Virus record (IMG/VR): IMGVR_UViG_3300030106_007792
Span: 16,380-66,494 of that record
From: a virus
DNA: 50,115 nt
Strand: one strand, 5' to 3'
Below the pieces are notes generated by a model, which saw nothing but the letters and a program-made list of their open reading frames with translations, searched no databases and was not told the DNA's origin. Positions 12,570-39,394 of this stretch are shown here, in pieces. Each line of letters begins with the position of its first letter. Positions within the stretch are counted from its first letter, which is position 1. The translations under genes were made by a program, and so were the position numbers.

Positions 12570-13055
12570 TTAAATGTATCCCATTTGTACTTTTCTTCGC
12601 ATATCTGGACCAACTACTAGATTAAAACCTGAAGCAACTGGTAGCATGGTACCGGCTTTAGCAGTATAGGTAACGGTCATTCCATTAAGTGCGACTAATG
12701 CAAAGGTATTATTATGGTAATCTGAATCTACTCTAATGTGTGTATTATGTGTAGCATGATCTGGTGATCTCATTGTTCTAGCAGTAACAGGAGCGCTATT
12801 TGGTGAACTACCATCGCCTCCTTTATAGTTAAATAAAAGTCCAATTACTGGTGAATCTCCAATTCTTCCTGTATTTAATAATTGAACTGAATTATCTAAC
12901 GCACTTAATCCAAAGTCTCCACCTCGACCATTTGCCAGTGGCGAGTTATTTAAATAGTGTGGAAGTTGTATTCCTGTGTTGCTAAATTCGCCCCCACTTA
13001 AGTTATAAAGACCGTGTGTAAACGATGAAAGGTTAAAAAAATTCATTGATGACAT
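12570..13055 (-). CDS. Late beta-rich virion-type protein, paralogue B
   Basis: 161 residues starting MSSMNFFNLSS. The frame could be opened 45 bp further upstream, but the ATG at 13055 is 5 nt from a late box in exactly the arrangement of paralogue A, so I use it. It shares the NNSPLANGRGGDFGLSALDNS region and the GFNLVVGPDMRRKVQMGY C-terminus with paralogue A. No known family was recognised. A late virion protein is inferred from the promoter and the duplicated arrangement. Confidence 0.55.
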   Translation of the reverse strand: MSSMNFFNLSSFTHGLYNLSGGEFSNTGIQLPHYLNNSPLANGRGGDFGLSALDNSVQLLNTGRIGDSPVIGLLFNYKGGDGSSPNSAPVTARTMRSPDHATHNTHIRVDSDYHNNTFALVALNGMTVTYTAKAGTMLPVASGFNLVVGPDMRRKVQMGYI

Positions 13056-13060
13056 ATTAA

Positions 13061-13068
13061 TATTTAGT
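13061..13068 (-). promoter_or_regulatory. Late promoter box ACTAAATA
   Basis: The minus strand reads AGACTAAATATTAAT and then ATG at 13055, a 5-nt spacer. Nearly identical to the box of the paralogous gene. Confidence 0.7.
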
Positions 13069-13102
13069 CTGCTTGTAAAATAGTTAAGAGGAATAAACAA
13101 AA

Positions 13103-13132
13103 AAAACAGCAGAGCTTTCGCTCTGCTGTTTT
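13103..13132 (-). terminator. Rho-independent terminator of the capsid gene
   Basis: A perfect 13-bp inverted repeat (13103-13115 with 13120-13132) encloses a 4-nt loop. On the minus strand the loop reads GAAA, a stable GNRA tetraloop, and the stem is followed by a run of eight T, then GTTT. It lies 45 bp after the gp23 stop. The A-run on the other side could also let it act on plus-strand transcripts. Confidence 0.9.
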
Positions 13133-13177
13133 GTGATTATGTCTCTCGACTGCTGCTTAATCAGCGACGTTCTAATA

Positions 13178-14710: not shown

Positions 14711-14792
14711 TAGACGTTTCCTTTCATTTTACCTCATGGGATCTAGTCCCAAGTTACTCAGGTGGCTAGCACCTCGTTGTTCAGGGGTGAAA

Positions 14793-24371: not shown

Positions 24372-24746
24372 CTATTTAGCTAACTTTTTATTTAATTCAA
24401 CATATTGTAATAATTCACGCTTTGATATATTTTTATTCTTAGCAATTATACTGATATCAACTTCTTCTTCTTTATCCTTCTTCTTCTTTTTAATATAGTT
24501 AATTCTTTTCCATTTTAAACGTGGAATGAGATAATAATACATTCTATATGCTTGTTGTTTATCTTCAAAAATAGTACTAAATTTATTTAGCGTTTCATTT
24601 GTAAAAACACACATATCATTATTATAGAATGATAACCACCTATTAAATAGAAAAGGAATAAAGTTTTGTTCTCCTTCAGTGTCTAAAACACCTGCATCAT
24701 CTTTTCTAGAATAAAATAATTTATTTTGTAATTTAAAAAAGTTCAT
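24372..24746 (-). CDS. 62: Sliding-clamp loader small subunit gp62-like
   Basis: 124 residues. The pattern F-x-PFL-x-NRWLSF-x-x-D-x-x-x-x-x-NE near residues 28-52, followed by Y-x-x-LIPRLKWKRINYIKKKKK near 70-90 and a short helical C-terminus, matches the gp62 family of T4-like cyanophages (NR-x-LS...ANE...K-K-x-RF-x-W). T4 gp62 is longer (187). gp62 forms the clamp loader with gp44, which is not in this window. The ATG overlaps the stop of the nucleotidyltransferase gene by one base. Confidence 0.6.
   Translation of the reverse strand: MNFFKLQNKLFYSRKDDAGVLDTEGEQNFIPFLFNRWLSFYNNDMCVFTNETLNKFSTIFEDKQQAYRMYYYLIPRLKWKRINYIKKKKKDKEEEVDISIIAKNKNISKRELLQYVELNKKLAK
24373..24380 (-). promoter_or_regulatory. 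Late promoter box GCTAAATA for gp31
   Basis: The minus strand reads GCTAAATA, GCTAT, ATG (24367): spacer 5 nt. The box overlaps the stop of the gp62-like gene, embedding the promoter in the upstream coding end. Confidence 0.7.
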
Positions 24747-25150
24747 TATTTACGTAAACGATAGTAGTCATATTCTAATATACCAGTTGTAGAATACCCT
24801 TTAATTCTTTCAAAAAATTTAAGTTCCTTTGCATGTTCCTGTCCAATGACAGGTTTACCTCGCCAATCGGAACCTATTATCATTATATCGGGGTTAATTT
24901 CTTTAATTAAATCTCGTAAACCCTGGGAACTATCAAAACTACGAACTTCATCTACAAAACGTAGCGATTGAAGCATTTTTATTCTATCAGATAATTTATT
25001 ATAGGGTCTATCTTCACCCTTATCTTTCTTTACTTTGTCATCTGAATCGACACCAACGTAAAGGTAACCGAAACTTTTTGCATATTCAAATAGTTGTAAA
25101 TGACCGACATGTAAAATATCAAAACAACCATTCGTAAATATTTTTTTCAT
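24746..25150 (-). CDS. HldE C-domain-like nucleotidyltransferase (heptose-1-P adenylyltransferase type)
   Basis: 134 residues, a complete cytidylyltransferase-fold domain. The nucleotide-binding HxGH motif is in GCFDILHVGHLQL (residues 8-20), followed by GVDSDDKVKKDKG, RIKMLQSLRFVDEV, PDIMIIGSDWRGK and a closing STTGIL (equivalent of the S-T-T motif). The spacing matches the C-terminal half of HldE, which makes ADP-heptose, more closely than TagD-type enzymes. The matching kinase half is a separate gene at 30107. The substrate is inferred. The gene overlaps the DUF366 gene by 4 bp. Confidence 0.75.
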   Translation of the reverse strand: MKKIFTNGCFDILHVGHLQLFEYAKSFGYLYVGVDSDDKVKKDKGEDRPYNKLSDRIKMLQSLRFVDEVRSFDSSQGLRDLIKEINPDIMIIGSDWRGKPVIGQEHAKELKFFERIKGYSTTGILEYDYYRLRK

Positions 25151-25735: not shown

Positions 25736-25763
25736 ATTATATATAATATATACTAGCTTTCAA
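25736..25763 (-). promoter_or_regulatory. Sigma70-like promoter for the DUF366 gene
   Basis: The minus strand carries TTGAAA (25763-25758), a 16-bp spacer, TATAAT (25741-25736) and 7 nt to the ATG at 25728. The expected +1 is at or next to the start codon. Confidence 0.65.
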
Positions 25764-26067
25764 CTATATTGTTATTTTTTATATAGTCTTCAATGTTTAT
25801 GCACTTATCATCAATCCATAAATCATACGATGGTTTATGCATCATGAGCTTATTATACTTTACACCCCATTCATTAAGCTGGTTAGCAGTTACATATGTC
25901 CAGTCTTTTCCGGAATTACCACCTCTAGCTGTATAGTATGTAATATGAGATCCATTATCATATAGATTATTAAAATGCTCAATTAAAGATTTACACGGAG
26001 TTGAATTTAAGTAGTCTGATGACTTTGTCTCACAAATTGTGTTATCTATATCAATTAGTAGTTTCAT
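25753..26067 (-). CDS. Small HAD-like phosphatase
   Basis: 104 residues. The N-terminal LLIDIDNTICETK has the HAD motif I D-x-D-x-T. TYYTARGG supplies the motif II Thr with the typical YTARG context, and YDLWIDDKCINIEDYI has the motif IV acidic pair. There is no room for a cap domain, so it belongs to the small capless HAD proteins often found in capsule and LPS clusters. It could dephosphorylate a sugar phosphate intermediate. It overlaps the cupin gene by 17 bp. Confidence 0.75.
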   Translation of the reverse strand: MKLLIDIDNTICETKSSDYLNSTPCKSLIEHFNNLYDNGSHITYYTARGGNSGKDWTYVTANQLNEWGVKYNKLMMHKPSYDLWIDDKCINIEDYIKNNNIVES

Positions 26068-26434
26068 TTTTTTGACTATCCCCAGGCTCTACTCTGTAAC
26101 TATCATGTTCAAAGTGTTGTGTACTTACTTCTATAATTTCAGAATCTTCTAATGCTTTTAGTTTATGTGGAATATTAGGCTTAATATCAACAACCATTCC
26201 TTCATTAATAGTTTTTGTAACACGATTCGCGTTTGTTAAATTATAGTATGACAGCTCCAATCTACCTTTAGCTACATACCACGTTTCTTCTTTTTCAATA
26301 TGGTAGTGCATTGAAAAAGAGCTATTTTTTTTAAATGATAAAATCTTTAGACAATATTTTTCTTTATTTACTATCCACCTTTCGTTGCCCCATCCCTTAG
26401 GGTGGTCTTTATACTGTATAATTTCAGGCCTCAT
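26051..26434 (-). CDS. Cupin, mannose-6-phosphate-isomerase-like
   Basis: 127 residues, a single cupin barrel: WGNERWIVNKEKYCLKILSF, then SFSMHYHIEKEETWYVAKGR (metal ligands H-x-H and E) and a second motif NIPHKL near residue 92. The pattern resembles the C-terminal cupin of type II phosphomannose isomerase / GDP-mannose pyrophosphorylase. An isomerase or epimerase on a phosphorylated sugar is plausible; the substrate is not evident. It overlaps both neighbours, the HAD phosphatase and the flavodoxin. Confidence 0.7.
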   Translation of the reverse strand: MRPEIIQYKDHPKGWGNERWIVNKEKYCLKILSFKKNSSFSMHYHIEKEETWYVAKGRLELSYYNLTNANRVTKTINEGMVVDIKPNIPHKLKALEDSEIIEVSTQHFEHDSYRVEPGDSQKNETTN

Positions 26435-26873
26435 TTATTTTTTCAACTAAACTCTCTACCCAATTATCTGCATCTTCTTCGTAATCAATATCACAATCGA
26501 CTCTTTCTAATAATGGTGTACCACCATGTCTTATAAGTTCTCTTTCTAGCTCTTTTCCACAACCACAAAAAATATCATATGAACTATCTCCTAGGCCAAG
26601 AACAGCAATAGATTTATCTATACCTAGTGGCTCAGAATTTCGTAAACTTTCAAAAAAAGGTACAGCTTCATCTGGTGGTTCACCCTCACCCCATGTACTA
26701 GTTATTCCTACAATACAATCTGCTTCTTGATGTAAAAAATTAATTTCCTCATTATCATCTAAGCAGAACTCATTAACAGTATGACCAGCATCCTCTAGTG
26801 CACTCTTAGCGTTGTCTGCTACAAACTCAGCGTTACCTGTCATACTTGCATATATAAGTGTTATTTTTTTCAT
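26424..26873 (-). CDS. Flavodoxin (MioC-like)
   Basis: 149 residues with a classical FMN phosphate loop, ASMTGNAE (residues 9-16), a TSTWGEGEPPD loop near residue 58-68 and GLGDSSYDIFCGCGKE near 92-107, which is the flavodoxin GLGD-x-x-Y signature. It is a soluble electron carrier. Three radical SAM enzymes in this window (27971, 34889, 40129) need a low-potential reductant, and flavodoxin is the known reductant for QueE in bacteria, so it may serve them. A TATAAT-like string lies 6 nt upstream of the ATG without a clear -35. Confidence 0.85.
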   Translation of the reverse strand: MKKITLIYASMTGNAEFVADNAKSALEDAGHTVNEFCLDDNEEINFLHQEADCIVGITSTWGEGEPPDEAVPFFESLRNSEPLGIDKSIAVLGLGDSSYDIFCGCGKELERELIRHGGTPLLERVDCDIDYEEDADNWVESLVEKINEA

Positions 26874-27442: not shown

Positions 27443-27470
27443 ATAATAATATCTAAATATTAAATTGCAA
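27443..27470 (-). promoter_or_regulatory. Sigma70-like promoter for apt
   Basis: The minus strand reads TTGCAA (27470-27465), a 16-bp spacer, TATTAT (27448-27443) and 5 nt to the ATG at 27437. Confidence 0.5.
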
Positions 27471-27974
27471 TAATTCTTGTACAAACTTAGCTGGTATTTG
27501 AGTGCCATGCAAACGAAATTCTTTATTGTTAGTATCTTCGAAAGCTATTCGTAAAATTTCATCTGCAGCTTCATGAAGCGACATCAACTCTATAACACCG
27601 TAAGGTTCACATTTATTTTCTTTTAAATCTTGACATACACCCTTTCCTAATAAAACAGGAAGCTTAATTACTTTACCTTGTTTGTGATTTGCTAATAAAT
27701 ATCCCCCTGCTTTTTGCTTATAAAAATTGTAAAAATTATTTTGCTCTGAATAAGTAGACGTAAAAATTATTTTATGCTCTTTGTTTGTATCTACAAATTT
27801 TTTAAACTGTTTATAGCAATTTTTCTGAGCTTTTTTATCATTTTTATCTCTCATATCCCAGGTATGGTATATGAAAACGACTTTTGGTGATAATCTAAAC
27901 CCTGGGCTAATATATCTAATTTTATATTCTAACTCTTTACCAAGTTGCCCATTACCATTTTGTAATACAATCAT
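27453..27974 (-). CDS. Short SDR-like (degenerate sugar-epimerase-like) protein
   Basis: 173 residues. The N-terminal VLQNGNGQLGKEL resembles the GxxGxxG nucleotide-binding turn of RmlD/epimerase-type SDR proteins, and IIFTSTYSEQ...YKQKAGGYLL resembles the catalytic S...Y-x-x-x-K region. It is about half the usual ~300 residues and lacks much of the substrate domain. It may be a trimmed reductase or a non-catalytic relative. Its ATG overlaps the radical SAM gene stop by 4 bp. Confidence 0.45.
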   Translation of the reverse strand: MIVLQNGNGQLGKELEYKIRYISPGFRLSPKVVFIYHTWDMRDKNDKKAQKNCYKQFKKFVDTNKEHKIIFTSTYSEQNNFYNFYKQKAGGYLLANHKQGKVIKLPVLLGKGVCQDLKENKCEPYGVIELMSLHEAADEILRIAFEDTNNKEFRLHGTQIPAKFVQELLQFNI

Positions 27975-29194
27975 ATAAATTCACTATGAATTATATTCTC
28001 TTTAATTTCTTCTTGTAGCTCGAGTAGTTCTTTTTTGACTGCATCTCTTGCCTCACCTTCAACACTATTATAAGCTTCATGTATATCCCATACAGCTTTA
28101 TTACTCTCATGAGGCTTACATAGTTGTGTACAATTTTTAAAGCATTCAACGTTATCTATTTGATGCATTATACGTTGTCTCTCTTGTACATCGTCCCAGA
28201 CCTCTTTAAAGGATTTTTCATGTAAAGATCCATAGCTATATTGCTTATATCCACGGTGATTAGTACACACGTAAACATTTCCATCAGCTCCTACACAGGG
28301 CTGCACTTGAGATCCCATACATTTTTTATACCTACGACCGAATAAAGACCTATCTTCTATTAAGTCGCTTAATTTATACCCATTAATTTGAAATTTATGC
28401 CCAAGAATTTCTTTAGCGGCATCTAGCTGAGGCTCTACATTTTTATTCCAAAAATCTAAATCTCTTTGTACACCGTCTTCTCTCTCTCGATTTACAATTT
28501 CAGGTTTATATTGACAATAATCTACATCTACATCTGCAAAGAATTTTGCAAAGTCTACAACCTCATGACACGTGTCAGGTGTGATAACAAAACCAACACC
28601 AATGCCAATTTTTTTACCCTTATCCTTGTTAACTTTAATCAACTTATTTAAGTTGCTCACCATCTTATCCCAACCTTGATTACCTTTAGCACGTCTAATA
28701 TTGTTATAAGTTTCCGGTGTACCGGCATCAATAGAGAATCTTACCCATGTCATGTTATCAACCATTGTTTCAAACAGATCCCATCTATCAAGCAATGTAC
28801 CATTAGTAAAAATACCCATTTTAATATCTGAATTTTCACCAATGTATGCAATTGCTTCTTTTAAGTGTTTATTAATTGTTGGTTCGCCACCTCCTGTCCA
28901 GTTAATGGCCCTCACACCCATATCAACAAAATCTTTACATGCTCCTAACAATATATCTCTAGGCATAACTGTCTTATCATATGTTTCAAGATTTTTCGAT
29001 TCAGGTAAATGTATATAGGAAGATATACAAAAGTAACATCCATGATTACATGTATTACTCGGATCTATCTCTACTAGAACTGGGGCCGGGTTTTTATCAT
29101 CTAAATAATCTATTACCCTATCTGCATTTGCATAAATTTTAGCTGCAGGGTTAAATATTTTACCTGATGTTAGTATTTCTTCTTTATTAAGCAT
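27971..29194 (-). CDS. Radical SAM enzyme with SPASM-type C-terminus
   Basis: 407 residues. The radical SAM cluster motif is C49-x3-C53-x2-C56 in CNHGCYFC, followed by WTGGGEPTIN (SAM-binding GGEP) near residue 98. The C-terminal region has CMGSQVQPCVGADGNVYVCT and CFKNCTQLCKPHES, the cysteine-rich SPASM/twitch pattern that binds auxiliary Fe-S clusters. Such enzymes modify peptides, proteins or sugars (for example dehydrogenation). Within a sugar operon the substrate may be a nucleotide sugar or glycan; this is inferred. The start overlaps the exostosin-like gene by 8 bp. Confidence 0.85.
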   Translation of the reverse strand: MLNKEEILTSGKIFNPAAKIYANADRVIDYLDDKNPAPVLVEIDPSNTCNHGCYFCISSYIHLPESKNLETYDKTVMPRDILLGACKDFVDMGVRAINWTGGGEPTINKHLKEAIAYIGENSDIKMGIFTNGTLLDRWDLFETMVDNMTWVRFSIDAGTPETYNNIRRAKGNQGWDKMVSNLNKLIKVNKDKGKKIGIGVGFVITPDTCHEVVDFAKFFADVDVDYCQYKPEIVNREREDGVQRDLDFWNKNVEPQLDAAKEILGHKFQINGYKLSDLIEDRSLFGRRYKKCMGSQVQPCVGADGNVYVCTNHRGYKQYSYGSLHEKSFKEVWDDVQERQRIMHQIDNVECFKNCTQLCKPHESNKAVWDIHEAYNSVEGEARDAVKKELLELQEEIKENIIHSEFI

Positions 29195-30110
29195 TTTTGT
29201 TTAACCAGTTTATAAAGAACAACGTCGGGTCTTTAAAGTATTCTTTTAATACGTCATTAAAGTACTTTTTTGCTAAGTCTCCACGTTGTTTTAATTCATC
29301 TATACTTGTATTATATATTGTAGTTAATTCATTTGCCATATCTTTTGGTGACATATCACCAATTACTTTAAACATAAATGACGTGTCATATTGATCTTCA
29401 CCTACTTGATAAAAATCTTCATTTGAAACAATTACTGGTACTCTACCATACGCGCATGTTTCCCATACACGTGTAGATGCTATACCTGCTCCACGTGGAC
29501 AAAGAGATAAGGGATGTTTTAGCATAAGCTCTTCAAAAATTAAATGAGGTTCAGATCGGGATGGAGCAGGTCCAAACCACCCAGCTGTCATATAAGCTTC
29601 GCGACGTACACGGTTTTCATTTAATGTTGGTTCTTTCAATGCTTCAAACAATACTTGTCTTGTAGGGTGATTAATACATCCCCTAAAACCAAAACCGGAT
29701 TTTTTTGGAAAATCAAAAACACGTTCATCTTTTAAACAGTCCATCATTAAAGAGGAAAAACAAGGTCTTGTAAAAAGTTTATAATAATCAAACCTCTTTA
29801 AAGGCCCCATAGTCGTTAAGATACACTTACGAAGCCACTCTGGTATCTCCCAACCTCCTTCACCTTCCATATCTACAATATGTTTATGTTCATTACCTTT
29901 AAAAAATTCAAACTCACTACCATCAGATTCGTATAATTTTATATTACTATCTTCACGAATTTGACCAATATGAAAATAATCTGCTTCATTAGGATTATTA
30001 ACAATTGTACAATGTTGTGTCAGACCATCTATACCTAACGGTATACAATTACGATATGGACCGTCATCAATATTATGAGGTGACGCTTGAGGATATCTAT
30101 ATAATTTCAT
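29187..30110 (-). CDS. Exostosin-like (GT47-type) glycosyltransferase
   Basis: 307 residues. The acceptor end is variable; the diagnostic part is SLCPRGAGIASTRVWETCAY followed by GRVPVIVSNEDFY at about residues 205-238, the donor-binding signature of exostosin-domain glycosyltransferases (CPRG...S-x-R-x-x-E-x-x-x-x-G-x-x-PVI). It has no membrane segment and acts in the cytoplasm. Donor and acceptor are unknown. The gene overlaps the kinase gene by 4 bp and the radical SAM gene by 8 bp. Confidence 0.75.
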   Translation of the reverse strand: MKLYRYPQASPHNIDDGPYRNCIPLGIDGLTQHCTIVNNPNEADYFHIGQIREDSNIKLYESDGSEFEFFKGNEHKHIVDMEGEGGWEIPEWLRKCILTTMGPLKRFDYYKLFTRPCFSSLMMDCLKDERVFDFPKKSGFGFRGCINHPTRQVLFEALKEPTLNENRVRREAYMTAGWFGPAPSRSEPHLIFEELMLKHPLSLCPRGAGIASTRVWETCAYGRVPVIVSNEDFYQVGEDQYDTSFMFKVIGDMSPKDMANELTTIYNTSIDELKQRGDLAKKYFNDVLKEYFKDPTLFFINWLNKNA

Positions 30111-30859
30111 AAAGCGAAATATTTGCTAATTACAGTTACACCTTGCTTCTGCACTACATCAGTAGCGCATTCATTTGCAAAATTTATACTCTCTTCAATA
30201 TTGTTAGTTCTTAAATATTTACATACTAAACCAGCTAAAAAAGTATCACCAGCACCAGAAAGATCTTTTATTTCTACATCTTTAACATCATATTGTATAC
30301 CTCTATATATAGCTCCTCCTGAACCTAGTGTCGTTATAATATTCTTTTTATTTGTAAAACTTTTTTCTGATTCTTTAAATTCCTTTCTATTAATTTTAAT
30401 AAATTTAATATTTTTTGCCCAGTCGCCTATAATTTTTTTTGTATCTAAAAATGTAATAGGGTGATTGTAAGAAATAAATTCTATTTCTTCCTCTGTAATA
30501 AAACCTTTATCATAATCTGAAATCACCACAGCAGAATAATCTTCTAAATTAATTTGCGCGCTATAATCCTTATATGCTGTATTTAATTCTGCTTTTGTAT
30601 CTATACGAATAAACATATGATTGGTTTTATGATCTACATATCTTGTTTTAACTATATTTTTATAATTTAAATTTGTGTAAAACTCTGCTTCACATTTTAA
30701 AGCTAATAAATTATTATGCACATTACCTGCCATTCCTCTATTTTCTTCAACATGTAATATGTCTAATAAGGGCACCGGTGCCTCTGGGCAAAGACGTTCA
30801 CATTTACAATATACAAATTTATCTATACAAGAATCGCCAAGTAATAATATAGGTTTCAT
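30107..30859 (-). CDS. PfkB-family kinase, HldE N-domain-like (heptose-7-P kinase type)
   Basis: 250 residues, shorter than the ~320 of the HldE kinase domain. LLLGDSCIDKFVY...R-x-CPEAPVPLLDI (residues 5-33) matches the HldE opening (GD...D-x-Y...R-x-SPEAPVPV). RGMAGNVHNNLLAL matches PGGAANVA-x-N-x-x-x-L, and the catalytic DLSGAGDTFLAGL is at 199-211. It would phosphorylate a heptose or related sugar. The partner adenylyltransferase half is encoded 5 kb away at 24746. The substrate assignment is by family resemblance only. Confidence 0.8.
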   Translation of the reverse strand: MKPILLLGDSCIDKFVYCKCERLCPEAPVPLLDILHVEENRGMAGNVHNNLLALKCEAEFYTNLNYKNIVKTRYVDHKTNHMFIRIDTKAELNTAYKDYSAQINLEDYSAVVISDYDKGFITEEEIEFISYNHPITFLDTKKIIGDWAKNIKFIKINRKEFKESEKSFTNKKNIITTLGSGGAIYRGIQYDVKDVEIKDLSGAGDTFLAGLVCKYLRTNNIEESINFANECATDVVQKQGVTVISKYFAL

Positions 30860-30860
30860 A

Positions 30861-31622
30861 TTAATCTGTTTCTAAGTTATATATAGTTTTAATATTTTCT
30901 TTATTCGAATTTCCTAAAGGACCAGATGTAATAATCTGTTTAAGTATATTAATATCTTTAGTTCTTTGTTCTAAACTACCTCTCCATAAATCAATACTAT
31001 CATCATGCGGGGCATCTGAACCTGTTTTATAGGTTTGATCATATTCTGCTTTTCCAGATCCCCAATGACAATGCTCAAAATATACCGGTGTGTAACATAA
31101 TCGGCCTAACTTTCTATATATGTAAGTTAACCAGTTATCTGAATAATTATAACCCATTCCTACCGGGTGCACATAACCAACTTGCTCAATTGCTCTTCTA
31201 CTTAAAAACCCATGAGTGGCTAGAGTACCGTTAGGTTGCATACCATCTGGTCCAAATACCAAACATACCTTATCTGAATAACGATTAAATTCTTCAGCTA
31301 TTAAAATATCCCAATTTTTAGTTTTAAAGTGTACATCATCTGCTGAGTACATTATAATATCACCTCTACATTTACTAAAAGCACGGTTATACATATCAGC
31401 TAATTTTGGCTTATCCTTATTAACAATAGCTGTTCCGGGTATTTTATCTAAGTGTGTATTAATATTTCCAGATTTTATAAAGTCGATAGTATCATTATCA
31501 TCACTATCAACATAAAATATAACTTCAACCTGTTTTGGCTGTAATGTATTATCATTTAAAGTCTTTAAAACCTTCTTAAGATTTTCAACTCTATTCTTAG
31601 TAGGTATAATTATTGATATCAT
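30861..31622 (-). CDS. GT2-family glycosyltransferase
   Basis: 253 residues. SIIIPTKNRVENLKKVLKTL at the N-terminus is the GT-A nucleotide-sugar fold entry, FYVDSDDND supplies an acidic cluster, and IMYSADDVHF near residue 92-101 is the D-x-D-like metal site. A WGSGKAEYDQTYK segment follows in the acceptor half. It is cytoplasmic with no membrane helix. The donor sugar is unknown. It sits between the kinase (2 bp gap) and another glycosyltransferase-like gene (4 bp overlap). Confidence 0.8.
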   Translation of the reverse strand: MISIIIPTKNRVENLKKVLKTLNDNTLQPKQVEVIFYVDSDDNDTIDFIKSGNINTHLDKIPGTAIVNKDKPKLADMYNRAFSKCRGDIIMYSADDVHFKTKNWDILIAEEFNRYSDKVCLVFGPDGMQPNGTLATHGFLSRRAIEQVGYVHPVGMGYNYSDNWLTYIYRKLGRLCYTPVYFEHCHWGSGKAEYDQTYKTGSDAPHDDSIDLWRGSLEQRTKDINILKQIITSGPLGNSNKENIKTIYNLETD

Positions 31623-32563
31623 TTTGCTGGTATAAATGAATGTAAAATGTGGTTATAATCTAACTGATCCTTCGAAAGAAAGAGTTTTTCTTTAATATAA
31701 TCTTTCAAAGTATTGTTCTTAACATGTCCTTCTGATGTATATAAGTCTGCATTATGTATTAAAACTTCTCCTAACTCTTCATAACCCAACCCAACTTCAT
31801 AAGCTTTAGGATCTTTTACTATTTTTTCCATATCAGCACAACCATATAAATTATTCCATGGTACTTGACGAGGTCCTACATGATCATAACTGAGAGTAGC
31901 TCCATCTTTTTCTTTAATATGAGTAAGAATTATATCTTTAATAATTACCCATTGCTTTTGTATACTAGCATTTAAAAAAGAAAATACTGACTCTGTACAA
32001 TATGCGTTAAATATATCTGGTATAAGTTTTCCAAAAGTTTTTAATAAATCATTTGAAAAATATGAAACGTGTAAATTACAGCATTTACCTACAGGCATTA
32101 TAAAATCTTCTTCTTTAATATAAGGGTTATTAACATGATCTCTTTTAAACCAATGATGACCGTGGTCTGTATCAGTTTGAAAACTAATCATACTAAACTT
32201 TTTAGTTTCAACTCTTTCATCTATTTCATTTAGTAGATTAAAATTATCCTCTGTATTTACCCCTGAGTCAATATACACATAACCGGTAAATTCGTTAAAT
32301 CTTTCAACACATTTTAAAACAGTCAAATTAAAAGTTATATTAACAGAAAGAAAATTTTCTGTATAGCAAAATGTTACTTTATTTTTAAATTCGTTATAAA
32401 GCTGATCTTTTGTTTGCTGTGAAACTCTACAACCACTTACTGCTACATGAAATTTTTTATGATTAAGTTTAAGTAAATTATTAATACACTTACTATACCA
32501 CTCAAAATTTCTCTTACCGATTTCACATATGTTATATATAATAAGATATTTGTTATTAGACAT
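31619..32563 (-). CDS. Probable glycosyltransferase (GT-A-like), substrate unknown
   Basis: 314 residues. It begins NNKYLIIYNICEIGKRNFEW, a fold-entry strand and helix, has an acidic YVYIDSGVNTED near residue 140-151 in the position of a GT-A D-x-D, and HHWFK and KCCNLHVSYFS segments later. No classical signature is complete, so the class is inferred from layout and company: glycosyltransferase genes on one side and a sugar dehydratase on the other. It overlaps the PLP gene by 8 bp. Confidence 0.5.
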   Translation of the reverse strand: MSNNKYLIIYNICEIGKRNFEWYSKCINNLLKLNHKKFHVAVSGCRVSQQTKDQLYNEFKNKVTFCYTENFLSVNITFNLTVLKCVERFNEFTGYVYIDSGVNTEDNFNLLNEIDERVETKKFSMISFQTDTDHGHHWFKRDHVNNPYIKEEDFIMPVGKCCNLHVSYFSNDLLKTFGKLIPDIFNAYCTESVFSFLNASIQKQWVIIKDIILTHIKEKDGATLSYDHVGPRQVPWNNLYGCADMEKIVKDPKAYEVGLGYEELGEVLIHNADLYTSEGHVKNNTLKDYIKEKLFLSKDQLDYNHILHSFIPAK

Positions 32564-33767
32564 TATTAAGCAGTGTTATAAGATTAGTAATTTTTTCCCT
32601 TTCTAATGAAGGATAATTACCGATGTACCAACTATAATTATGCACGTGCTCAATATTTGCAAAGCTTTGCTGTAATGCTTGATCAGTCATTCCTACTTGC
32701 CATGACCTACCTATTTTTTCCGCATGTCTACTAATATATGGCTGTCTAAGTTGATTACCACCACCAGATAAACCACGTCTAAATTCTATATTATTTGATT
32801 TAAGCATACTTTCGACTTTATTACGTTGCGTTATATCAGCTTCTTTCATTATAACAATAAAAGCATAATTACTTTGACCTTTAGTATCTAAAGTAGTAAC
32901 ATATTTTGTTGAATCTAATTTAGATAAAAAATATTCGAAATTATCGCGACGTATATCATTATTACTATCAAGAGATTTAATTTGCGATAAACCTAAGACT
33001 GCGTTAAGTTCTGTACTTCTAAAATTATACGCTGGTGATAGAAATATAAAATCCGGATTTAAGTCGGGGTGATCAAGTTTAACTTGTTGTTTAAAGTCTT
33101 CACTCTTACACTCTCTAACCATACCATGGGAGCGACTAAATCTCAAGATATCATAAAATTCATCGTTATCAGTACACACCATTCCTCCTTCAATCGTAGA
33201 CAGGTGGTGTGCAAAGTAAAAACTAAAATTACTAACATCGCCTATTGAACCAGCTTTTTTATTTTTAAAAGTAGCTCCATGTGACTCGCATACATCTTCT
33301 ATTAATAGAAGATCGTGTTCTTTGCAAAGTTGTATAAGTTCATCAGTAAGACCGTTTAGACCTAATACATGCGTTAGAAATATAGCTTTTGTTCTTGTAG
33401 TAATAGCTTGTTTTAGTTTTTGAATATCAAAGCTTAAATTAGATAAATTTATATCTACAAACACAGGGTTATGTCCAGTGTTTAAAACACTAGCAACATC
33501 TGAAACCCAAGTAAGCGGTGGAACTATAACTTCACAAGGACCATACTTATATTGTAAAAGTTGCATAGTCATATAATTTGCACTTGAACCAGAGTTTACA
33601 AATACGCTATGTTTTACACCCAACCATTCTGACCACTTTGCTTCAAATTCTTCTACTTTTGGACCGTTAGTTAGTCTTGGAATTGGATCTTGCTGTAAAA
33701 AATTTACTAACTCGTTAACATCTTCACGAGTTATATTATCTGACATTAATGGTATATTATAATTCAT
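32556..33767 (-). CDS. ColD/E1-like PLP-dependent sugar 3-dehydratase
   Basis: 403 residues of the DegT/DnrJ/EryC1/StrS fold. NSGSSANYMTMQLL (~58-71) and VPPLTWVSD form the PLP pocket, and the ring-binding Asp is in LLIEDVCESHGA (~158). At the position where aminotransferases carry the PLP lysine, the sequence is FSFYFAHHLSTIEGG (~181-195): histidine replaces lysine (His187). The same substitution defines GDP-4-keto-6-deoxymannose 3-dehydratase ColD and the CDP-sugar E1 enzyme, which remove the C3 hydroxyl. So this is best read as a dehydratase making a 3,6-dideoxy-4-keto sugar, not an aminotransferase. It overlaps the thiamine-diphosphate enzyme gene by 4 bp. Confidence 0.85.
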   Translation of the reverse strand: MNYNIPLMSDNITREDVNELVNFLQQDPIPRLTNGPKVEEFEAKWSEWLGVKHSVFVNSGSSANYMTMQLLQYKYGPCEVIVPPLTWVSDVASVLNTGHNPVFVDINLSNLSFDIQKLKQAITTRTKAIFLTHVLGLNGLTDELIQLCKEHDLLLIEDVCESHGATFKNKKAGSIGDVSNFSFYFAHHLSTIEGGMVCTDNDEFYDILRFSRSHGMVRECKSEDFKQQVKLDHPDLNPDFIFLSPAYNFRSTELNAVLGLSQIKSLDSNNDIRRDNFEYFLSKLDSTKYVTTLDTKGQSNYAFIVIMKEADITQRNKVESMLKSNNIEFRRGLSGGGNQLRQPYISRHAEKIGRSWQVGMTDQALQQSFANIEHVHNYSWYIGNYPSLEREKITNLITLLNNV

Positions 33768-34294
33768 TTTTCGTTATAGTAATCACCCCACTCTACTAGT
33801 ATAGTCGATTTTCCATCTTCGCGAAGCAACGCTTTTGTATATGCAGGAAAGATATCCTCTGGTTCATCTAGACGAATAACTTCTATATTTTTACACATGC
33901 TGGAAAATGCTTCCGTATAATCACCTGTATGTTGATGATGAGGATGTAAAGGTCTTACTGATCCAACTCCTGTTCTAATAATAGCTTTAGTTTTAAAATC
34001 TGATATCATTGGAAATTTATCCAAATGATTTACAATCTGATTTGTACCTAACAGTAAAAAATTCCATCTTGGAAATATACTTACCGGTATTTTACCTGCA
34101 AGAGCAATTCCATTTGTCATACCCATTTGTAAATCTTCACATACCGGTAATTCAAGTTTTTTTTCATTTGATACATCTTTAAGTGTATTAGTCATCCCTG
34201 TACCAGCGCACTCAACAGCTTGACCTAAAAATAAAGTCTTAGGATGCTCAGCCAGCATCTCCATAGATCGTTTTAATTCATCAAAATATTTCAT
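33764..34294 (-). CDS. Thiamine-diphosphate enzyme, Pyr-domain half (E1-beta/transketolase-like)
   Basis: 176 residues from the ATG at 34294 (MKYFDELKRSMEM), chosen because it starts 2 bp after the stop of the partner gene; a longer frame is possible but would overlap it. The conserved catalytic Glu lies in LPVCEDLQMGMTNGIALAG (~residue 53), followed by PVSIFPRWNFLLLGTNQI, IIRTGVGSVRPLHPHHQHTG and a closing ILVEWGDYY. This is the pyrimidine-binding domain of E1-beta/transketolase-type enzymes without the C-terminal domain. With the adjacent PP-domain protein it should form one active enzyme that transfers or decarboxylates a keto acid. Confidence 0.75.
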   Translation of the reverse strand: MKYFDELKRSMEMLAEHPKTLFLGQAVECAGTGMTNTLKDVSNEKKLELPVCEDLQMGMTNGIALAGKIPVSIFPRWNFLLLGTNQIVNHLDKFPMISDFKTKAIIRTGVGSVRPLHPHHQHTGDYTEAFSSMCKNIEVIRLDEPEDIFPAYTKALLREDGKSTILVEWGDYYNEK

Positions 34295-34296
34295 AT

Positions 34297-34899
34297 TTAA
34301 AATTGTACACGTTGACCAGCACCAGCATGCGGCCATTTAGTTTCATATGTATAATGATATACATAGTCATCATTAATTCCATCGTATGGGTGATCTTTTG
34401 CACACCAAACTTCTTTTGTGTCAGTACAGACAGACTTACCGTTGTCCTCAATAATAAATTTAATAGGTAAGTCATGGGCTTTTGAGTATCTTAAACACTC
34501 ATCAAAAGAGCCTGTTAAAGCAGTCATATCACCAACAAAGCAATATACTTTATTTGTACCGCCACTTCGTTTAATATCTAACGCCAGACCGACACTTATA
34601 GGTAATATACCGGTAACGATAGCTGAAGAAAATACTCTATATTCTGGAAAGTTTAAAGATATAGAGCGACCTGACATAATCTCTGATTTAACTTGTTCTG
34701 GCGGTACACCTTTAAGTAAACATTGATAATGACTTCTCCAAGTACATAATACCCAATCATCTTTGTTTATATCTTTAAATATTTTAATACATTCATCTTC
34801 GTTACCTGAATAAAGATGTACAGGAGCTTTAATTTTTGAATTATTAAACTCTTCAGCTATATCTTCTTCAAAATTAATTAAATCTTTACTAGTTAGCAT
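34297..34899 (-). CDS. Thiamine-diphosphate enzyme, PP-domain half (E1-alpha-like)
   Basis: 200 residues from ATG 34899 (a GTG lies one codon upstream). WVLCTWRSHYQCLLKGVPPE corresponds to the R-x-H region of E1-alpha subunits, and GDMTALTGSFDECLRYSKAH followed by DLPIKFIIEDNGKSV is the GD-x(26-28)-DN cofactor motif. The protein is ~60% of a normal E1-alpha (~320-370), ending HAGAGQRVQF. Adjacent to the Pyr-domain half and the ColD-like dehydratase, it suggests two-carbon transfer to a keto-deoxysugar. That activity is inferred. Confidence 0.8.
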   Translation of the reverse strand: MLTSKDLINFEEDIAEEFNNSKIKAPVHLYSGNEDECIKIFKDINKDDWVLCTWRSHYQCLLKGVPPEQVKSEIMSGRSISLNFPEYRVFSSAIVTGILPISVGLALDIKRSGGTNKVYCFVGDMTALTGSFDECLRYSKAHDLPIKFIIEDNGKSVCTDTKEVWCAKDHPYDGINDDYVYHYTYETKWPHAGAGQRVQF

Positions 34900-36424
34900 C
34901 ACTATATAATTTTCTTTTAAGTTTTACTTTTGTCATCTCTTTAATATTATCTACTTGCTTTTGACCATATTTTTCTTTTACAAGATTTAAAAAAGGTTTG
35001 TAATTATGATATTCATTATAAGCATCATCTCTAAATTTTAGAATCTCACCTGCAGTACATTTATCTGTCGGTGACGGTAAGGTATTATATCCAAAGAAAG
35101 AATAGTCTTCATATGTCTTTGGTAAACTATACCCTTTATCTAATGCATCTTTATATAACTGACTACCCGGTAGAGGCATTGCAGCATAAGCATTCCATCC
35201 CATTGTACATAATCTTTTACTTAAATCAAGAGTTTTACGCATAGACGCTTGAGTATCACCCGGTAAACCAAAGATAAAATTACCCATTACGTTAATATCA
35301 GCTTCGTGTATTTGTCTAACTACCTTTTCTATATCTACTTCTTCAAACTTACCTTTTGCTACTTCTAATCTTACTTCTTTTTCACCGCTTTCAATACCTA
35401 AAGCTAACCATTTGATACCAGCAGCTCTAACAGTCTTAAGTAAATCAGGTCTTCTCACAGTATCGATCCGTGAATAAGCCCACATTGTTAATTTGTCTAC
35501 ATATGGGCGCTCACTTAAAGCTTTGCAAAGAGGTTCATAATATTTTTTATTAAACAAAAATAACTCATCTGTTATTTTTATAGTATAAACGCCTAATTCA
35601 GCTAGTTTATCAAATTCATTAATAATAAACTCCGGAGACCAATGTCTCATTAAGCTATAATTACCAGCTACACCTACTTCCTCTTCATCATTTCGATTTA
35701 AAATGTTTATCATGCAGAAGTTACATCCAAATTGACAACCTAAAGAAGTTTGTATTGCAGCATACGGAGATCTTTTTTCTTCATCATATTCAGCATGCCA
35801 CATTGGTGCTCTATATAAGTCAAGCGGCTTATCTTTATATGGTAAAAGGTCCCAAGCATAACCTGGTAAGTCAATATCCATTCTATCTCGCGGAACAACT
35901 GCTTCAGATTGATTAAATGTAGGTTCGCCATTCTTTCTCCAGGCAATTCCTTTAATATCTTCTAAATTGTTTATATCAATCTCATCTAAAGATAAAATAT
36001 TTCTTAAAGCATAAACACCTTCGTTAGTAAAACAAAAATCTATCGAAGGTTCGTCACGTAATGCTTTAATTGGTAAAGCTTGTACATGTGATCCGACATA
36101 AGCAATTGGTGTTTTAATATTATTAGCTTTTAAATGGTTAGAAAGGTATACAGAGCCTGACATATTAACTGTACCAGCATTAACATTTTGACCATATACA
36201 ACAAAACAAACTAACCGCGGTTTAAGTTCCTTAACTCTTTCGAGAACATCATCAGCATTTAATTGCTCAGCATTTGCATCACATATTGCTACTTTATATC
36301 CAATAGATCTGCACGATTCAGCTAATAATAAAGCCCAGGTTGGTGGTTCAATAGCCGCATACGTTGTTGCTAAGTCTTGATATATACCCTTTGTATTACC
36401 TGGTGTTATAAACAGTACATCCAT
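34889..36424 (-). CDS. B12-binding-type radical SAM enzyme
   Basis: 511 residues. The N-terminal ~190 residues form a cobalamin-binding-like Rossmann domain (VLFITPGN, PPTWALLLAESCR-x-x-GYKVAICDANAEQL, AYVGSHVQALP), but the classical D-x-H-x-x-G is not present. The radical SAM motif is C230-x3-C234-x2-C237 in SLGCQFGCNFC, followed by TIKITDELFLF and GIESG-x-KEV and ending FGLPGDTQASM. This architecture is used by methyltransferases, cyclases and some C-C bond-forming enzymes. In this operon it may alkylate or rearrange the sugar. It overlaps the E1-alpha-like gene by ~11 bp. Confidence 0.85.
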   Translation of the reverse strand: MDVLFITPGNTKGIYQDLATTYAAIEPPTWALLLAESCRSIGYKVAICDANAEQLNADDVLERVKELKPRLVCFVVYGQNVNAGTVNMSGSVYLSNHLKANNIKTPIAYVGSHVQALPIKALRDEPSIDFCFTNEGVYALRNILSLDEIDINNLEDIKGIAWRKNGEPTFNQSEAVVPRDRMDIDLPGYAWDLLPYKDKPLDLYRAPMWHAEYDEEKRSPYAAIQTSLGCQFGCNFCMINILNRNDEEEVGVAGNYSLMRHWSPEFIINEFDKLAELGVYTIKITDELFLFNKKYYEPLCKALSERPYVDKLTMWAYSRIDTVRRPDLLKTVRAAGIKWLALGIESGEKEVRLEVAKGKFEEVDIEKVVRQIHEADINVMGNFIFGLPGDTQASMRKTLDLSKRLCTMGWNAYAAMPLPGSQLYKDALDKGYSLPKTYEDYSFFGYNTLPSPTDKCTAGEILKFRDDAYNEYHNYKPFLNLVKEKYGQKQVDNIKEMTKVKLKRKLYSDAN

Positions 36425-37368
36425 TATAAATTTGTAAAATCTTTATTTTTAAACGTGGTAATTAACTCATAACCTTTAATAAGTTCAACAATACCATCTT
36501 CTATTGTAAATTTAGGTCTCCACCCTAAATTTTCTAGCTTTTCATTTGATACAATATAGTTTCGTTTATCAAAATCTTCAGTAAACTCTTCTTCTATTAT
36601 AACTAACTCGGGTATATATTTTTTAATAGATTGCGCTAGCTCTAATTTACTTAAATTTGCTGTAGATAAACCAACATTAAATGGTTCTCCTACACATTTA
36701 TCATAATTTTCTATTACAAATAAGAAGGTATTAGCTATATCTCTTACATGTATATAATTTCTCTTAAAAGAAGACTGAAAAAGTACTAATAATTTATCTG
36801 TAACCGCGCGGTAAACAAAATCATTTACAAGAAGGTCTAATCTCATACGTGGTGATAAACCAAATACAGTTGCTAATCTTAAAGCAACTCCAGATCGATC
36901 ACTATCTATTACAGCAGTTTCTGCATGACATTTAGTTTTTGCATAATGTGAGAGAGGTTTAAACGGACTCTCTTCAGTAATAATATTTTCTGAGGAACCG
37001 TATTGAGAGTTAGTATTAGGAATTATTAATTGTTGATCTTTAGAAGTTTTTTCAACAATTGTAATAATTTGTTCTAAATTAACTTCAGTAGCTAACTCAG
37101 GATTATTATCACATGCTGGCATGCCTACGATTGCAGCTAGTGGAATTATAATATCAAAATCTTTTAAATTAACTAATGTTGTAATATTTCTAATATCGCC
37201 TTTAATAAAGGTAAAGTCCTTATTATAGCAATACGAAGTTAAGCTTCGTTGCTTGTATGTAAGATTATCAATAACGGTTACCTTATATTTTTTATCCAGT
37301 AATGAACCTACCAATATACTTCCTAAGTAACCTGCACCTCCGGTAATTAATACTCTTTTTGATTTCAT
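36424..37368 (-). CDS. NAD-dependent nucleotide-sugar epimerase/dehydratase
   Basis: 314 residues, a standard extended SDR. It has the GxxGxxG motif in VLITGGAGYLGSILV (5-19), VIDNLTYKQRSL, GDIRN (~58-62), PLAAIVGMPACD (~76-87), and the catalytic Ser/Tyr-x3-Lys in PNTNSQYGSS...HYAKTKCHAE (~117-150). It will oxidise and rearrange a nucleotide-activated hexose or heptose (GalE, dehydratase or HldD type). It is the likely entry enzyme to the deoxysugar pathway of the downstream genes. Its start and stop overlap or abut both neighbours. Confidence 0.85.
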   Translation of the reverse strand: MKSKRVLITGGAGYLGSILVGSLLDKKYKVTVIDNLTYKQRSLTSYCYNKDFTFIKGDIRNITTLVNLKDFDIIIPLAAIVGMPACDNNPELATEVNLEQIITIVEKTSKDQQLIIPNTNSQYGSSENIITEESPFKPLSHYAKTKCHAETAVIDSDRSGVALRLATVFGLSPRMRLDLLVNDFVYRAVTDKLLVLFQSSFKRNYIHVRDIANTFLFVIENYDKCVGEPFNVGLSTANLSKLELAQSIKKYIPELVIIEEEFTEDFDKRNYIVSNEKLENLGWRPKFTIEDGIVELIKGYELITTFKNKDFTNL

Positions 37369-37371
37369 AAA

Positions 37372-37896
37372 TTAATTATCTCTATTAGATATTATAGCTT
37401 TGTTTAGATCGAATGGCCAGTTAAAATTATAGCTTTTATCATGCCATTTAACAGTATATTGATTATCTGCGCCTTCATAGTGTTCAGTCATTTTATAACT
37501 AAATAGACACTCGTGACTGATACAATAATGTCCATTAACGCAATCAGCCGGTACTAATACTTGCTGTCTTGTTTTATTATCTAAATAAAATTCTGCCCAT
37601 TTTTTTGTTGATGGTTGTGCTACAACAAGATATATTTTACCGTATAAACAAGAAATAAGTTTCCATGTCTTATTATCTCCATGTAACCCTCTAAATACTG
37701 GCCACTTGGATTTTGAAAACGTATCTAGTACAAACTCTTTGTCTTTAAAACTAACCTGCAAATATTTATCTGATGAAATTTCTTCTTTAAACTTTAAACT
37801 ATCGTAAGACTCAAAATTATGACCCCTCTCATCCTTATAAAGCTCTGGAGTAAATAGAGTTAGTCCTTTAATTTCATTTATATTAAATTGTGTCAT
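37372..37896 (-). CDS. RmlC-like nucleotide-sugar 3,5-epimerase (cupin)
   Basis: 174 residues, the family size. The RmlC layout is present: LTLFTPELYKDERGHNFESY, then FSKSKWPVFRGLHGDNKTWK followed by LISCLYGKIYLVVAQP (catalytic His in RGLHGD ~residue 72), LVPADCVNGHYCISHECLFSYK and a terminal YTVKWHDKSYNFNWP. It epimerises 4-keto-6-deoxy sugars at C3 and/or C5, so it fits between the upstream SDR and the ColD-like dehydratase. The C-terminal Asp is in WHDKS. It begins 1 bp into the end of the next-upstream gene. Confidence 0.8.
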   Translation of the reverse strand: MTQFNINEIKGLTLFTPELYKDERGHNFESYDSLKFKEEISSDKYLQVSFKDKEFVLDTFSKSKWPVFRGLHGDNKTWKLISCLYGKIYLVVAQPSTKKWAEFYLDNKTRQQVLVPADCVNGHYCISHECLFSYKMTEHYEGADNQYTVKWHDKSYNFNWPFDLNKAIISNRDN

Positions 37897-38201: not shown

Positions 38202-38622
38202 CTTTAAAAATATCCCAGTTTTGTAAATCAGATTTAAGTTCAGCAGCCAAACAATCAGTTTTAAGATCAACTCTTTCACCAAGTTCGTTTGAAATAACAT
38301 TTTTAGCTGTATTTCTTACACCATTAATTGAATGGGTTAATTTAAGTAACAGAGCTTCATTATCATCTGCACTGCTTCGTACCTTACTTTCATTCTCCCA
38401 AATATATCTATTGGAAAGCATAACTATACTAATAGCTCTTATTAGCTCTGCTGTTAAGTTAACATCTTTTTCTTTAATAATTTCATCGATATCGTGCTTA
38501 ATATCATTTATTTCTTTATCATAAGCTTCTTTATTTTCTGGAATAAAGATTGACTTTAATTGACAGATTGTCATTCTATCAATTAACTCTGCAAACGTTG
38601 GTAAGTATTTTCTATTTGACAT
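38191..38622 (-). CDS. Glycosyltransferase-associated helical protein
   Basis: 143 residues, nearly all helical: LPTFAELIDRMTICQLKSIF at the N-terminus and LSNRYIWENESKVRSSADDN, ALLLKLTHSINGVRNTAKNV in the middle. Proteins with an ELIDR-x-[ST]-I-x-x-x-K opening and an N-x-x-x-W-x-x-E-x-x-x-R centre occur beside glycosyltransferases in many bacteria and phages (DUF4254-like); their function is not established to my knowledge. Overlaps: 11 bp with each neighbour. Confidence 0.5.
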   Translation of the reverse strand: MSNRKYLPTFAELIDRMTICQLKSIFIPENKEAYDKEINDIKHDIDEIIKEKDVNLTAELIRAISIVMLSNRYIWENESKVRSSADDNEALLLKLTHSINGVRNTAKNVISNELGERVDLKTDCLAAELKSDLQNWDIFKDEN

Positions 38623-39394
38623 TTTTAATTTCTTTTAAGGTTTTTATAACTGCATCTATCTCAGTATCAGGTACTGATGTAGGACCCACTCCATGTTTAT
38701 CTGTAAATTTACTCCATGCATCTTGAATATTAGATTGCCAGTCTTTTCTCGGTCTAATAGCAGAACTATTCTCTGAGCAAGCTTGTTCTTCAACATAATC
38801 AAGACTATTACTAATATCTGGCCACCACCAATACGGGGTACAATATTTCTTTTTAGCTAATTGATAAGAGTGGTCTACATGCTCAAACGCGTTAGTATAA
38901 TTTTCATCATATATACCTACATCTTCTAAGCACTCTTTTGTGTAAAAACAAACAGCACCTACACAATGTTGGTTTAAAGCAATTTGAATGTTATTATAAT
39001 CAATAAGCTTACGTGGAACAGGCTTACCACCACTTATTCCAGCTTTATTTGCCGGTCCGTGATAAGCAAACATAAAGTGATGTATACCTGTCTCCTTATA
39101 AGCTTTAATATATTGTTTAAATAGGTTATCTTTAAACATCATATCATCTTCAACTAAAATAACATAATTGCAACCTTCATCTAATAGATATTCAATTGCA
39201 ATGTTTTTTGCCTTACCAACACCTTCACCACCTTTTGTTTGTATAACTGCTGCTCTGCTATTATAAAGAGGGCCTTTACCATCATTCACAACAACAATAC
39301 TATCACACCACTCTTCTTTAATTGATTCTCTACATTTTTTAAAGAATTCTGGACGATTACATGTAATAATTCCTACACCTATCTTTTCACTCAT
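38612..39394 (-). CDS. GT2-family glycosyltransferase
   Basis: 260 residues. IGVGIITCNRPEFFKKCRES opens the GT-A fold, GVGKAKNIAIEYLLDEGCNY leads into ILVEDDMMFKDN (~77-88), which holds the metal-binding acidic pair, and CFYTKECLEDVGIYDENY, then NAFEHVDHSYQLAKK, is the acceptor-side E-x-x-D region typical of GT2 enzymes. No membrane helix. It is one of four glycosyltransferase-like genes in this cluster. Confidence 0.85.
   Translation of the reverse strand: MSEKIGVGIITCNRPEFFKKCRESIKEEWCDSIVVVNDGKGPLYNSRAAVIQTKGGEGVGKAKNIAIEYLLDEGCNYVILVEDDMMFKDNLFKQYIKAYKETGIHHFMFAYHGPANKAGISGGKPVPRKLIDYNNIQIALNQHCVGAVCFYTKECLEDVGIYDENYTNAFEHVDHSYQLAKKKYCTPYWWWPDISNSLDYVEEQACSENSSAIRPRKDWQSNIQDAWSKFTDKHGVGPTSVPDTEIDAVIKTLKEIKNVK

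Follow-up and report, generated by a model that had tools for sequence, protein, structure and literature searches.

The sugar 3-dehydratases ColD and E1 act on 4-keto-6-deoxyhexoses, and ColD-type enzymes operate with pyridoxamine 5'-phosphate (PMP) and glutamate, without an iron-sulfur cluster (PMC8987622). Campylobacter jejuni HS:5/HS:11 possess ColD-related C3-dehydratases, which are 62-67% identical to enzymes of E. coli and Yersinia and use GDP-6-deoxy-4-keto-heptose as substrate (PMC10440746). Cj1427 of C. jejuni oxidizes GDP-manno-heptose at C4, its bound NADH being re-oxidized by 2-oxoglutarate, and Cj1427 combined with a C3-dehydratase yielded GDP-3-deoxy-4-keto-heptose in vitro (PMC10680097). 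Here we describe a gene module in a 50,115-nucleotide stretch of viral DNA (hereafter the window; positions 16,380 to 66,494 of the 66,494-base virus record IMGVR_UViG_3300030106_007792), in which a ColD-like DegT-family protein and a Cj1427-like short-chain dehydrogenase/reductase (SDR) are encoded together with a short, E1-type thiamine diphosphate (ThDP) enzyme and a radical S-adenosylmethionine (SAM) protein. We consider it reasonably probable that the genes at 32556-37896 represent a nucleotide-heptose tailoring pathway of a marine, T4-like phage, common to SAR11-type bacteria, whose product would be a 3-deoxy and probably C4-branched heptose.

ThDP enzymes that branch keto sugars fall into several groups. 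The alphaKADH2 enzymes, with E1-alpha/beta subunits, are a known class from the aldgamycin, avilamycin, paulomycin and kibdelomycin pathways; some members are backed by feeding, knockout and in vitro evidence, and those characterized have been described as specialists for C2 branches that derive from pyruvate (PMC12247030). The same source describes YerE-type enzymes as another class and reports that split transketolases have been proposed as branching enzymes in miharamycin and amipurimycin biosynthesis. AviB and EvdU5/EvdS3 are treated in PMC4753412 and PMC10338323. Pelagimyophages reportedly carry cassettes with glycosyltransferases, rfaE and radical-SAM genes within or close to a host-recognition region, which have been read as O-chain modification directed against co-infection (PMC7029224). 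A hypervariable region of Fonsibacter contains four genes termed ‘transketolase’, each with one or two out of three domains and of uncertain function (PMC6811365).

A predicted ColD-type dehydratase beside a short E1-type enzyme

The protein encoded at 32556-33767 matched the Pfam family DegT_DnrJ_EryC1 (PF01041; 2e-71). Its residues 181-195 are FSFYFAHHLSTIEGG, and His187, the first His of FAHH, aligns with residue 188 of ColD, a position occupied by Asn in 3b8x (titled H188N) and by Lys in 2r0t. The initial annotation had noticed a pyridoxal phosphate enzyme with His in place of the aminotransferase Lys, and this was borne out: among DegT homologs with at least 35% identity in viral and SAR11-family loci, His occupied this position in all 71 that covered it (loci not thinned for redundancy; one further match did not cover the position and was left out). 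Nine more distant DegT proteins from the same loci had Lys in six cases, each an additional DegT gene of a locus with a His-type one, and His in three, located near the E1 pair in L072, L114 and L115. The CxCxC motif, which is the form taken by the [2Fe-2S] cysteines of E1/SpnQ dehydratases and was the sole pattern scanned, occurred in 0 of 72 homologs. ColD was the top sequence match in the PDB (2.6e-55), and no ColD model was found among the NCBIfam matches. An AlphaFold2 model (mean predicted local distance difference test score, pLDDT, 88.8) was nearest to ColD (Z 45.8 over 375 residues, rmsd 2.6, 32% identity), ahead of E1 dehydrase (Z 43.8) and of aminotransferases (42.4 and lower), in line with the assignment to ColD/E1-type 3-dehydratases in the initial annotation. 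Judged from sequence, catalytic His and model, the protein is very probably a ColD-type sugar 3-dehydratase.

This gene directly adjoins two ThDP enzyme halves on the minus strand, also as initially annotated. The E1-beta-like open reading frame (ORF) extends over 33764-34336 (190 aa), with an inner ATG at 34294 as the probable start (176 aa). In Pfam, the alpha subunit matched E1_dh (8.8e-15) and the beta subunit Transket_pyr (2e-7). Counting the best match per locus in the unthinned set, and numbering beta after the 190-aa ORF, alpha Arg56, His58 and Gly124 were kept in 103/103 loci, of which 88 had Asp and 15 had Glu at alpha residue 125, Asn154 was present in 101 (the other two lacked coverage), and beta Glu67 and His136 were kept in 95/95. 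These residues have cofactor-binding or catalytic roles in E1 enzymes. By homology the pair thus consists of E1-alpha/beta subunits with conserved ThDP/Mg and catalytic residues, and a pseudogene reading was rejected because of this conservation. The pair matched E1 and not the single-chain acetolactate-synthase (YerE) type, as the initial annotation had suggested when it placed an E1-type enzyme at the position of YerE. However, sugar branching by E1-type enzymes is not new but an established class, alphaKADH2 (PMC12247030). The window pair falls short of full-length alphaKADH2 subunits, with no Transketolase_C match in beta by Pfam; being short and without this C-terminal domain, it would therefore at most work like alphaKADH2.

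Conservation of the module in phages and bacteria

Viral contigs were searched with the alpha subunit, and 80 of 83 loci were kept. Together, 99 viral and SAR11-family alpha loci formed 46 clusters at 95% alpha identity, of which 33 (viral, 21 of 29; SAR11 family, 12 of 17) had the required flanks of 3.5 kb upstream and 4.5 kb downstream. With one locus per cluster, a context gene was counted wherever it lay in the fetched stretch, provided that it passed a fixed identity threshold. The recurrent neighbors of alpha were the radical-SAM protein, the SDR, the DegT enzyme and a heptose-type kinase. In the 21 viral loci we found beta in 21, the SDR in 20, DegT and radical SAM in 17 each, the kinase in 16, and an RmlC-like gene in six. 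The 12 SAR11-family loci contained beta (12), the SDR and the kinase (11 each), an HddC/GmhB fusion (10), DegT, radical SAM and RmlC-like genes (nine each), long E1 (five), an acetolactate-synthase type gene (three) and GmhA (one). Hence, phages and bacteria alike have retained the pairing of the predicted 3-dehydratase and a ThDP carbon-carbon enzyme.

The operon also occurs in a 5.4-Mb genome (G805; 69% GC) of the same phylum as the SAR11 family, where stretch L140 shows the order HddA, alpha, beta, DegT, HddC, GmhA, SDR, an ORF without NCBIfam match, and radical SAM. Its labeled genes have the same order in three further regions (L144-L146), and alpha was present in 5/8 genomes of this genus. 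A phage-specific module, which we had considered, was dropped on these grounds; the sugar pathway that the initial annotation ascribed to the phage is not a phage peculiarity. An alpha tree of 49 rows required two changes of label between phage and SAR11, with long branches that leave the deep joins unsure.

We sampled 197 SAR11-family genomes, of which 25 had a DegT match above 510 bits (next at 381). A ThDP gene pair was located near DegT in 22 of the 25: the short E1 pair in 15, only a long E1 pair in three, and a split transketolase pair in four. In 21 of these genomes the nearest ThDP gene lay 0.5-2.9 kb from DegT; in the other, G037, the distance was 6.6 kb. No ThDP gene was found in the remaining three, which include G012 and G154 with contigs of only 6.6 and 3.3 kb. 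Short alpha and module DegT co-occurred in 15 genomes compared to 2.5 expected under independence, and the 20 genomes with short alpha contained module DegT in 15 and an SDR above 396 bits in 16 cases. Among the four split pairs, NCBIfam backed transketolase for two and, in one more, for the N half; the C halves also scored with DXS models. Two genomes outside the 25 (distant or no DegT) also had ThDP genes in the region, namely a long E1 pair in G010 and a split transketolase pair in G159. A JanthE-like gene of the acetolactate-synthase type was found in 6/25 genomes; its best PDB match was 8rph, which has been identified as JanthE, a YerE-like enzyme (PMC12188165).

A shared carbon-carbon step predicts that different ThDP families can stand in for each other at the same site, as observed here. 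We tentatively propose, as a possibility that we rate somewhat below even, that the operon common to SAR11 and its phages is a modular one for branched 3-deoxy-heptoses, with a single ThDP slot whose occupant can be exchanged. In this slot, short E1, long E1 or split transketolase (sometimes plus a YerE-like enzyme) would add different branches to the same GDP-3-deoxy-4-keto-heptose, and phages would use a version of their own to rewrite a surface sugar of the host. The operon is also a likely explanation of the truncated ‘transketolase’ genes of Fonsibacter.

Three related loci were observed separately. On viral contig L075 the short E1 pair co-occurs with a full-length one (7983-9157, 12996-14716), a combination also seen in several SAR11 operons. 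In the 735-kb phage genome L084 (LR756501.1), the order of the distant E1-beta and E1-alpha genes is reversed and an ORF that looks radical-SAM-like by eye separates them; the 20.6 kb read contained no DegT match. L083 (CAKLQH020000018.1), deposited as an Acinetobacter phage, was set aside as a bacterial-looking acetoin-dehydrogenase operon; trpB, aroC and clpA are annotated nearby, and it is probably host sequence.

Predicted heptose chemistry

The top PDB match of the SDR was 6vo6 (1.3e-99; next sequence 5.5e-23), with 164 of 303 aligned residues identical (54%). We take this entry to be Cj1427, the GDP-heptose C4-dehydrogenase of C. jejuni, and by this similarity the SDR is very likely such an enzyme. 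The conserved module contains no 4,6-dehydratase; therefore, and given the SDR, the sugar is probably a 3-deoxy-heptose that keeps O6 and not a 3,6-dideoxyhexose. In the window operon, relatives of the Campylobacter enzymes that were mixed in vitro thus stand side by side, as far as homology indicates. The eight best PDB sequences for the cupin were GDP-heptose epimerases (1.8e-24 to 1.1e-21) according to the entry names, the 7AN entries being tied to DdahB and MlghB (PMC7949155), so that it is likely a GDP-4-keto-heptose C3/C5-epimerase. The SAR11 operons have an adjoining HddA-like kinase and HddC+GmhB fusion, and a GmhA-like gene occurs in L105. In a PF01370 search, a single Epimerase-family SDR was found in three of seven phage records including the 154-kb sibling of the window, where it is the Cj1427-like one.

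The radical-SAM protein has a Cx3Cx2C motif that was invariant in 11 aligned rows, a Pfam match to the B12-binding domain, and a sequence match to AprD4 (3e-15). Its model (mean pLDDT 81.8) was nearest to AprD4 (Z 28.1), followed by MgmA (25.8) and by TsrM and OxsB (24.9). AprD4 may not need cobalamin. By motif and domain the protein appears to be of the B12 type, and may catalyze a deoxygenation or C-methylation. As a separate observation, four close relatives of the window phage (L003, L004, L006 and L009) have about 1.1 kb extra between the radical-SAM gene and alpha, which in L006 is a 378-aa ORF.

We infer the following order of steps. The His-type DegT enzyme would remove O3, with PMP regenerated from glutamate, to give GDP-3-deoxy-4-keto-heptose, which the RmlC-like cupin could epimerize at C5. 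The short E1-alpha/beta enzyme would decarboxylate a 2-oxo acid, most likely pyruvate, and transfer the two-carbon unit to the ketone at C4, where a tertiary alcohol would result. We lean toward the view that the ThDP enzyme does branch the sugar. With a ThDP ligase acting at C4, a C4-reductase would be unnecessary in those loci that have none; a 173-aa ORF (27453-27974) considered for this role was set aside, as it had no Pfam match. The radical-SAM enzyme would perform a further change. Transfer of the sugar to a surface polysaccharide would fall to the glycosyltransferases, and may alter host recognition or block other phages.

Alternative pathways

The initial annotation had proposed a C4-branched 3,6-dideoxyhexose like yersiniose, made from CDP- or GDP-4-keto-6-deoxyhexose. 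Its starting point, the dehydratase/ThDP pairing, is conserved, and several observations fit such a hexose, the second and third of which also weigh against a heptose: ColD and E1 act on 4-keto-6-deoxyhexoses (PMC8987622), RfbH (E1-type, iron-sulfur) was the best NCBIfam model for the DegT protein at 216.6 versus a cut-off of 423 bits, 4,6-dehydratase-like SDRs occur near the module in L067, L071 and L149, and the acetolactate-synthase type gene in six SAR11-family genomes matches JanthE. However, the lone Epimerase-family SDR of the 154-kb sibling is Cj1427-like, and the neighboring genes are homologs of heptose-type kinases, isomerase and guanylyltransferase. We consider the hexose quite improbable; the heptose is more likely, and its branching is what we infer. 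That annotation had named the DegT gene and the ThDP pair as neighbors and had overlooked the SDR, the epimerase-like cupin and the radical-SAM enzyme.

If the ThDP pair instead acted upstream in the pathway, as a small transketolase providing the heptose route with sedoheptulose 7-phosphate or a different sugar phosphate, no branching would take place. Split transketolases substitute for it in 4/25 genomes and its fused cyanophage forms adjoin HldE-like genes, both of which would suit that role, but the pair matches the E1 of 2-oxo-acid dehydrogenases and tracks keto-sugar enzymes, and sedoheptulose 7-phosphate is normally supplied by central metabolism, making this unlikely. Branching could also use another donor, such as 2-oxoglutarate, or another carbonyl that the radical-SAM enzyme creates or moves. 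A radical-SAM gene was present in 17/21 viral loci, and AprD4, its nearest fold, carries the title of a 1,2-diol dehydratase with paromamine as substrate. Moreover, 2-oxoglutarate is formed from glutamate by the C3-dehydratase and consumed by Cj1427 (PMC10440746, PMC10680097). The characterized alphaKADH2 enzymes are, however, described as specialized for C2 branches from pyruvate (PMC12247030), and we regard such a variant as rather improbable.

Further points weigh against the branched 3-deoxy-heptose that we prefer. At the threshold used, 7/33 flanked loci (4/21 viral, 3/12 SAR11) had the E1 pair without DegT. The fused cyanophage homologs (P-TIM68, S-SM2), near HldE-like genes, had no DegT or Cj1427-like SDR within 24.5 kb, and conversely G017 has DegT and no ThDP gene within 18 kb. 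Four genomes chosen for their SDR (G023, G043, G065 and G101) had no ThDP gene in the region, G043 and G101 at contig edges. Several SAR11 loci contain two or three ThDP enzymes, which a single branch leaves unexplained. Short alpha is rare outside the SAR11 family (1/385 and 2/398 sampled genomes, G001 included): among 385 genomes of the class only G001 exceeded 300 bits with the alpha profile (next 105), and among 398 of the phylum only G001 and G805 reached E <= 1e-40. The dehydratase model has a pLDDT below 50 at residues 189-191, beside the catalytic His, and the reading of 6vo6 as Cj1427 is our assumption. Precursor proteins of SAR11, L140 and phages are nearest to heptose families in NCBIfam but below the curated cut-offs, and the L140 HddC homolog scored about equally with a mannose-1-phosphate guanylyltransferase model. 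In the window phage we saw HldE-like kinase and nucleotidyltransferase homologs and no HddA or HddC, and the nucleotide may therefore not be GDP. Lastly, two to five Epimerase-family SDRs were found in four of the seven phage records, and in several loci, L010, L085 and G124 among them, the surroundings of the module include Fcl-like SDRs that might act as C4-reductases. Reduction or, where 4,6-dehydratase-like SDRs are present, 6-deoxygenation is therefore possible in such loci, and schemes may differ.

Genomic setting

The sugar-gene island lies on the minus strand of the window (Table 1). A flavodoxin gene (26424-26873) accompanies two radical-SAM genes in the island, the second encoding a protein with a SPASM domain (27971-29194), and is possibly the electron donor for both. 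Two repetitive ORFs of about 1,550 aa each (39-4694 and 6244-10890) appear tail-fiber-like by eye. Window DNA at 20000-44000 gave no megablast match in the phage collection, from which close records may be absent. SAR11 is the presumed host.

Table 1 Features of the window and the assignments made for them.
Feature	Position	Strand	Remarks
T4-like major capsid homolog	13178-14710		
HldE domain II-like nucleotidyltransferase	24746-25150	-	rfaE_dom_II 4.1e-31, under curated cut-off
Small ‘capsule biosynthesis phosphatase’-like protein	25753-26067	-	EcbF-BcbF 1.2e-8, under cut-off
PfkB kinase, HldE domain I-like	30107-30859	-	rfaE_dom_I 1.5e-34, under curated cut-off
Family 2 glycosyltransferase	30861-31622	-	Pfam
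Protein without Pfam match	31619-32563	-	Adjoins DegT gene in near relatives L001, L002, L006, L007, L009
DegT-family ColD-like sugar 3-dehydratase (predicted)	32556-33767	-	403 aa; catalytic His187
Short E1-beta-like ThDP subunit	33764-34294	-	Pyr domain alone, no Transketolase_C match; listed ORF reaches 34336
Short E1-alpha-like ThDP subunit	34297-34899	-	200 aa from ATG
Radical-SAM protein, B12-binding domain match	34889-36424	-	Pfam, motif, fold
Extended SDR, likely GDP-heptose C4-dehydrogenase (Cj1427-like)	36424-37368	-	PDB sequence search, alignment
RmlC-like cupin, likely GDP-4-keto-heptose C3/C5-epimerase	37372-37896	-	PDB sequence search
Family 2 glycosyltransferase-like protein	38612-39394	-	

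Comparison with known systems

The module combines known enzyme types in an unusual manner, which probably leads from a seven-carbon sugar to a rare branched, deoxygenated cell-surface sugar, and gives the sugar genes of related phages, as well as some of the hypervariable surface region of SAR11, a chemical identity that can be tested. In a narrow search of the open-licence literature we found no report of a natural operon for 3-deoxy or branched heptoses. If our reading is correct, the pairing of heptose C4-dehydrogenase and C3-dehydratase, which we found described only in vitro, would be placed in natural genomes, and a very small E1-type carboligase would become available as a possible biocatalyst. 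It would also account for ‘truncated transketolase’ genes of uncertain function: those of Fonsibacter are, by their description, probably of the same kind (E1-type or split-transketolase pairs), whereas we found no pathway proposed for them there (PMC6811365).

The ThDP pair shares the E1-alpha/beta architecture and the location beside keto-deoxysugar genes with the alphaKADH2 enzymes AviB1/AviB2, Pau11/Pau12 and KbDH-alpha/beta (AviB and KbDH compared by description). It differs from them in its size of about 200 + 176 aa, compared to 325 aa for Pau11 and 345 aa for Pau12 (PMC4425429), in the missing Transketolase_C match of beta, and in its surface-polysaccharide and phage context. YerE and JanthE likewise branch keto sugars with ThDP, and a JanthE-like gene is part of some SAR11 operons, but these enzymes have the acetolactate-synthase fold and were found in 0/21 flanked viral loci. 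The DegT enzyme resembles ColD and the GDP-heptose C3-dehydratases of C. jejuni HS:5/HS:11 in having His for Lys and no CxCxC, and ColD is nearest by PDB sequence and fold; yet it is only 31-32% identical to ColD in the structural alignment, and its substrate is probably a 4-keto-heptose that keeps O6. Finally, the SDR shares 54% identity with 6vo6, presumably Cj1427 of the C. jejuni capsule pathway, and the NTNSxYG motif is common to both. In C. jejuni HS:2 an epimerase and a C4-reductase follow this enzyme, whereas in the window it is accompanied by a predicted 3-dehydratase and a ThDP enzyme.

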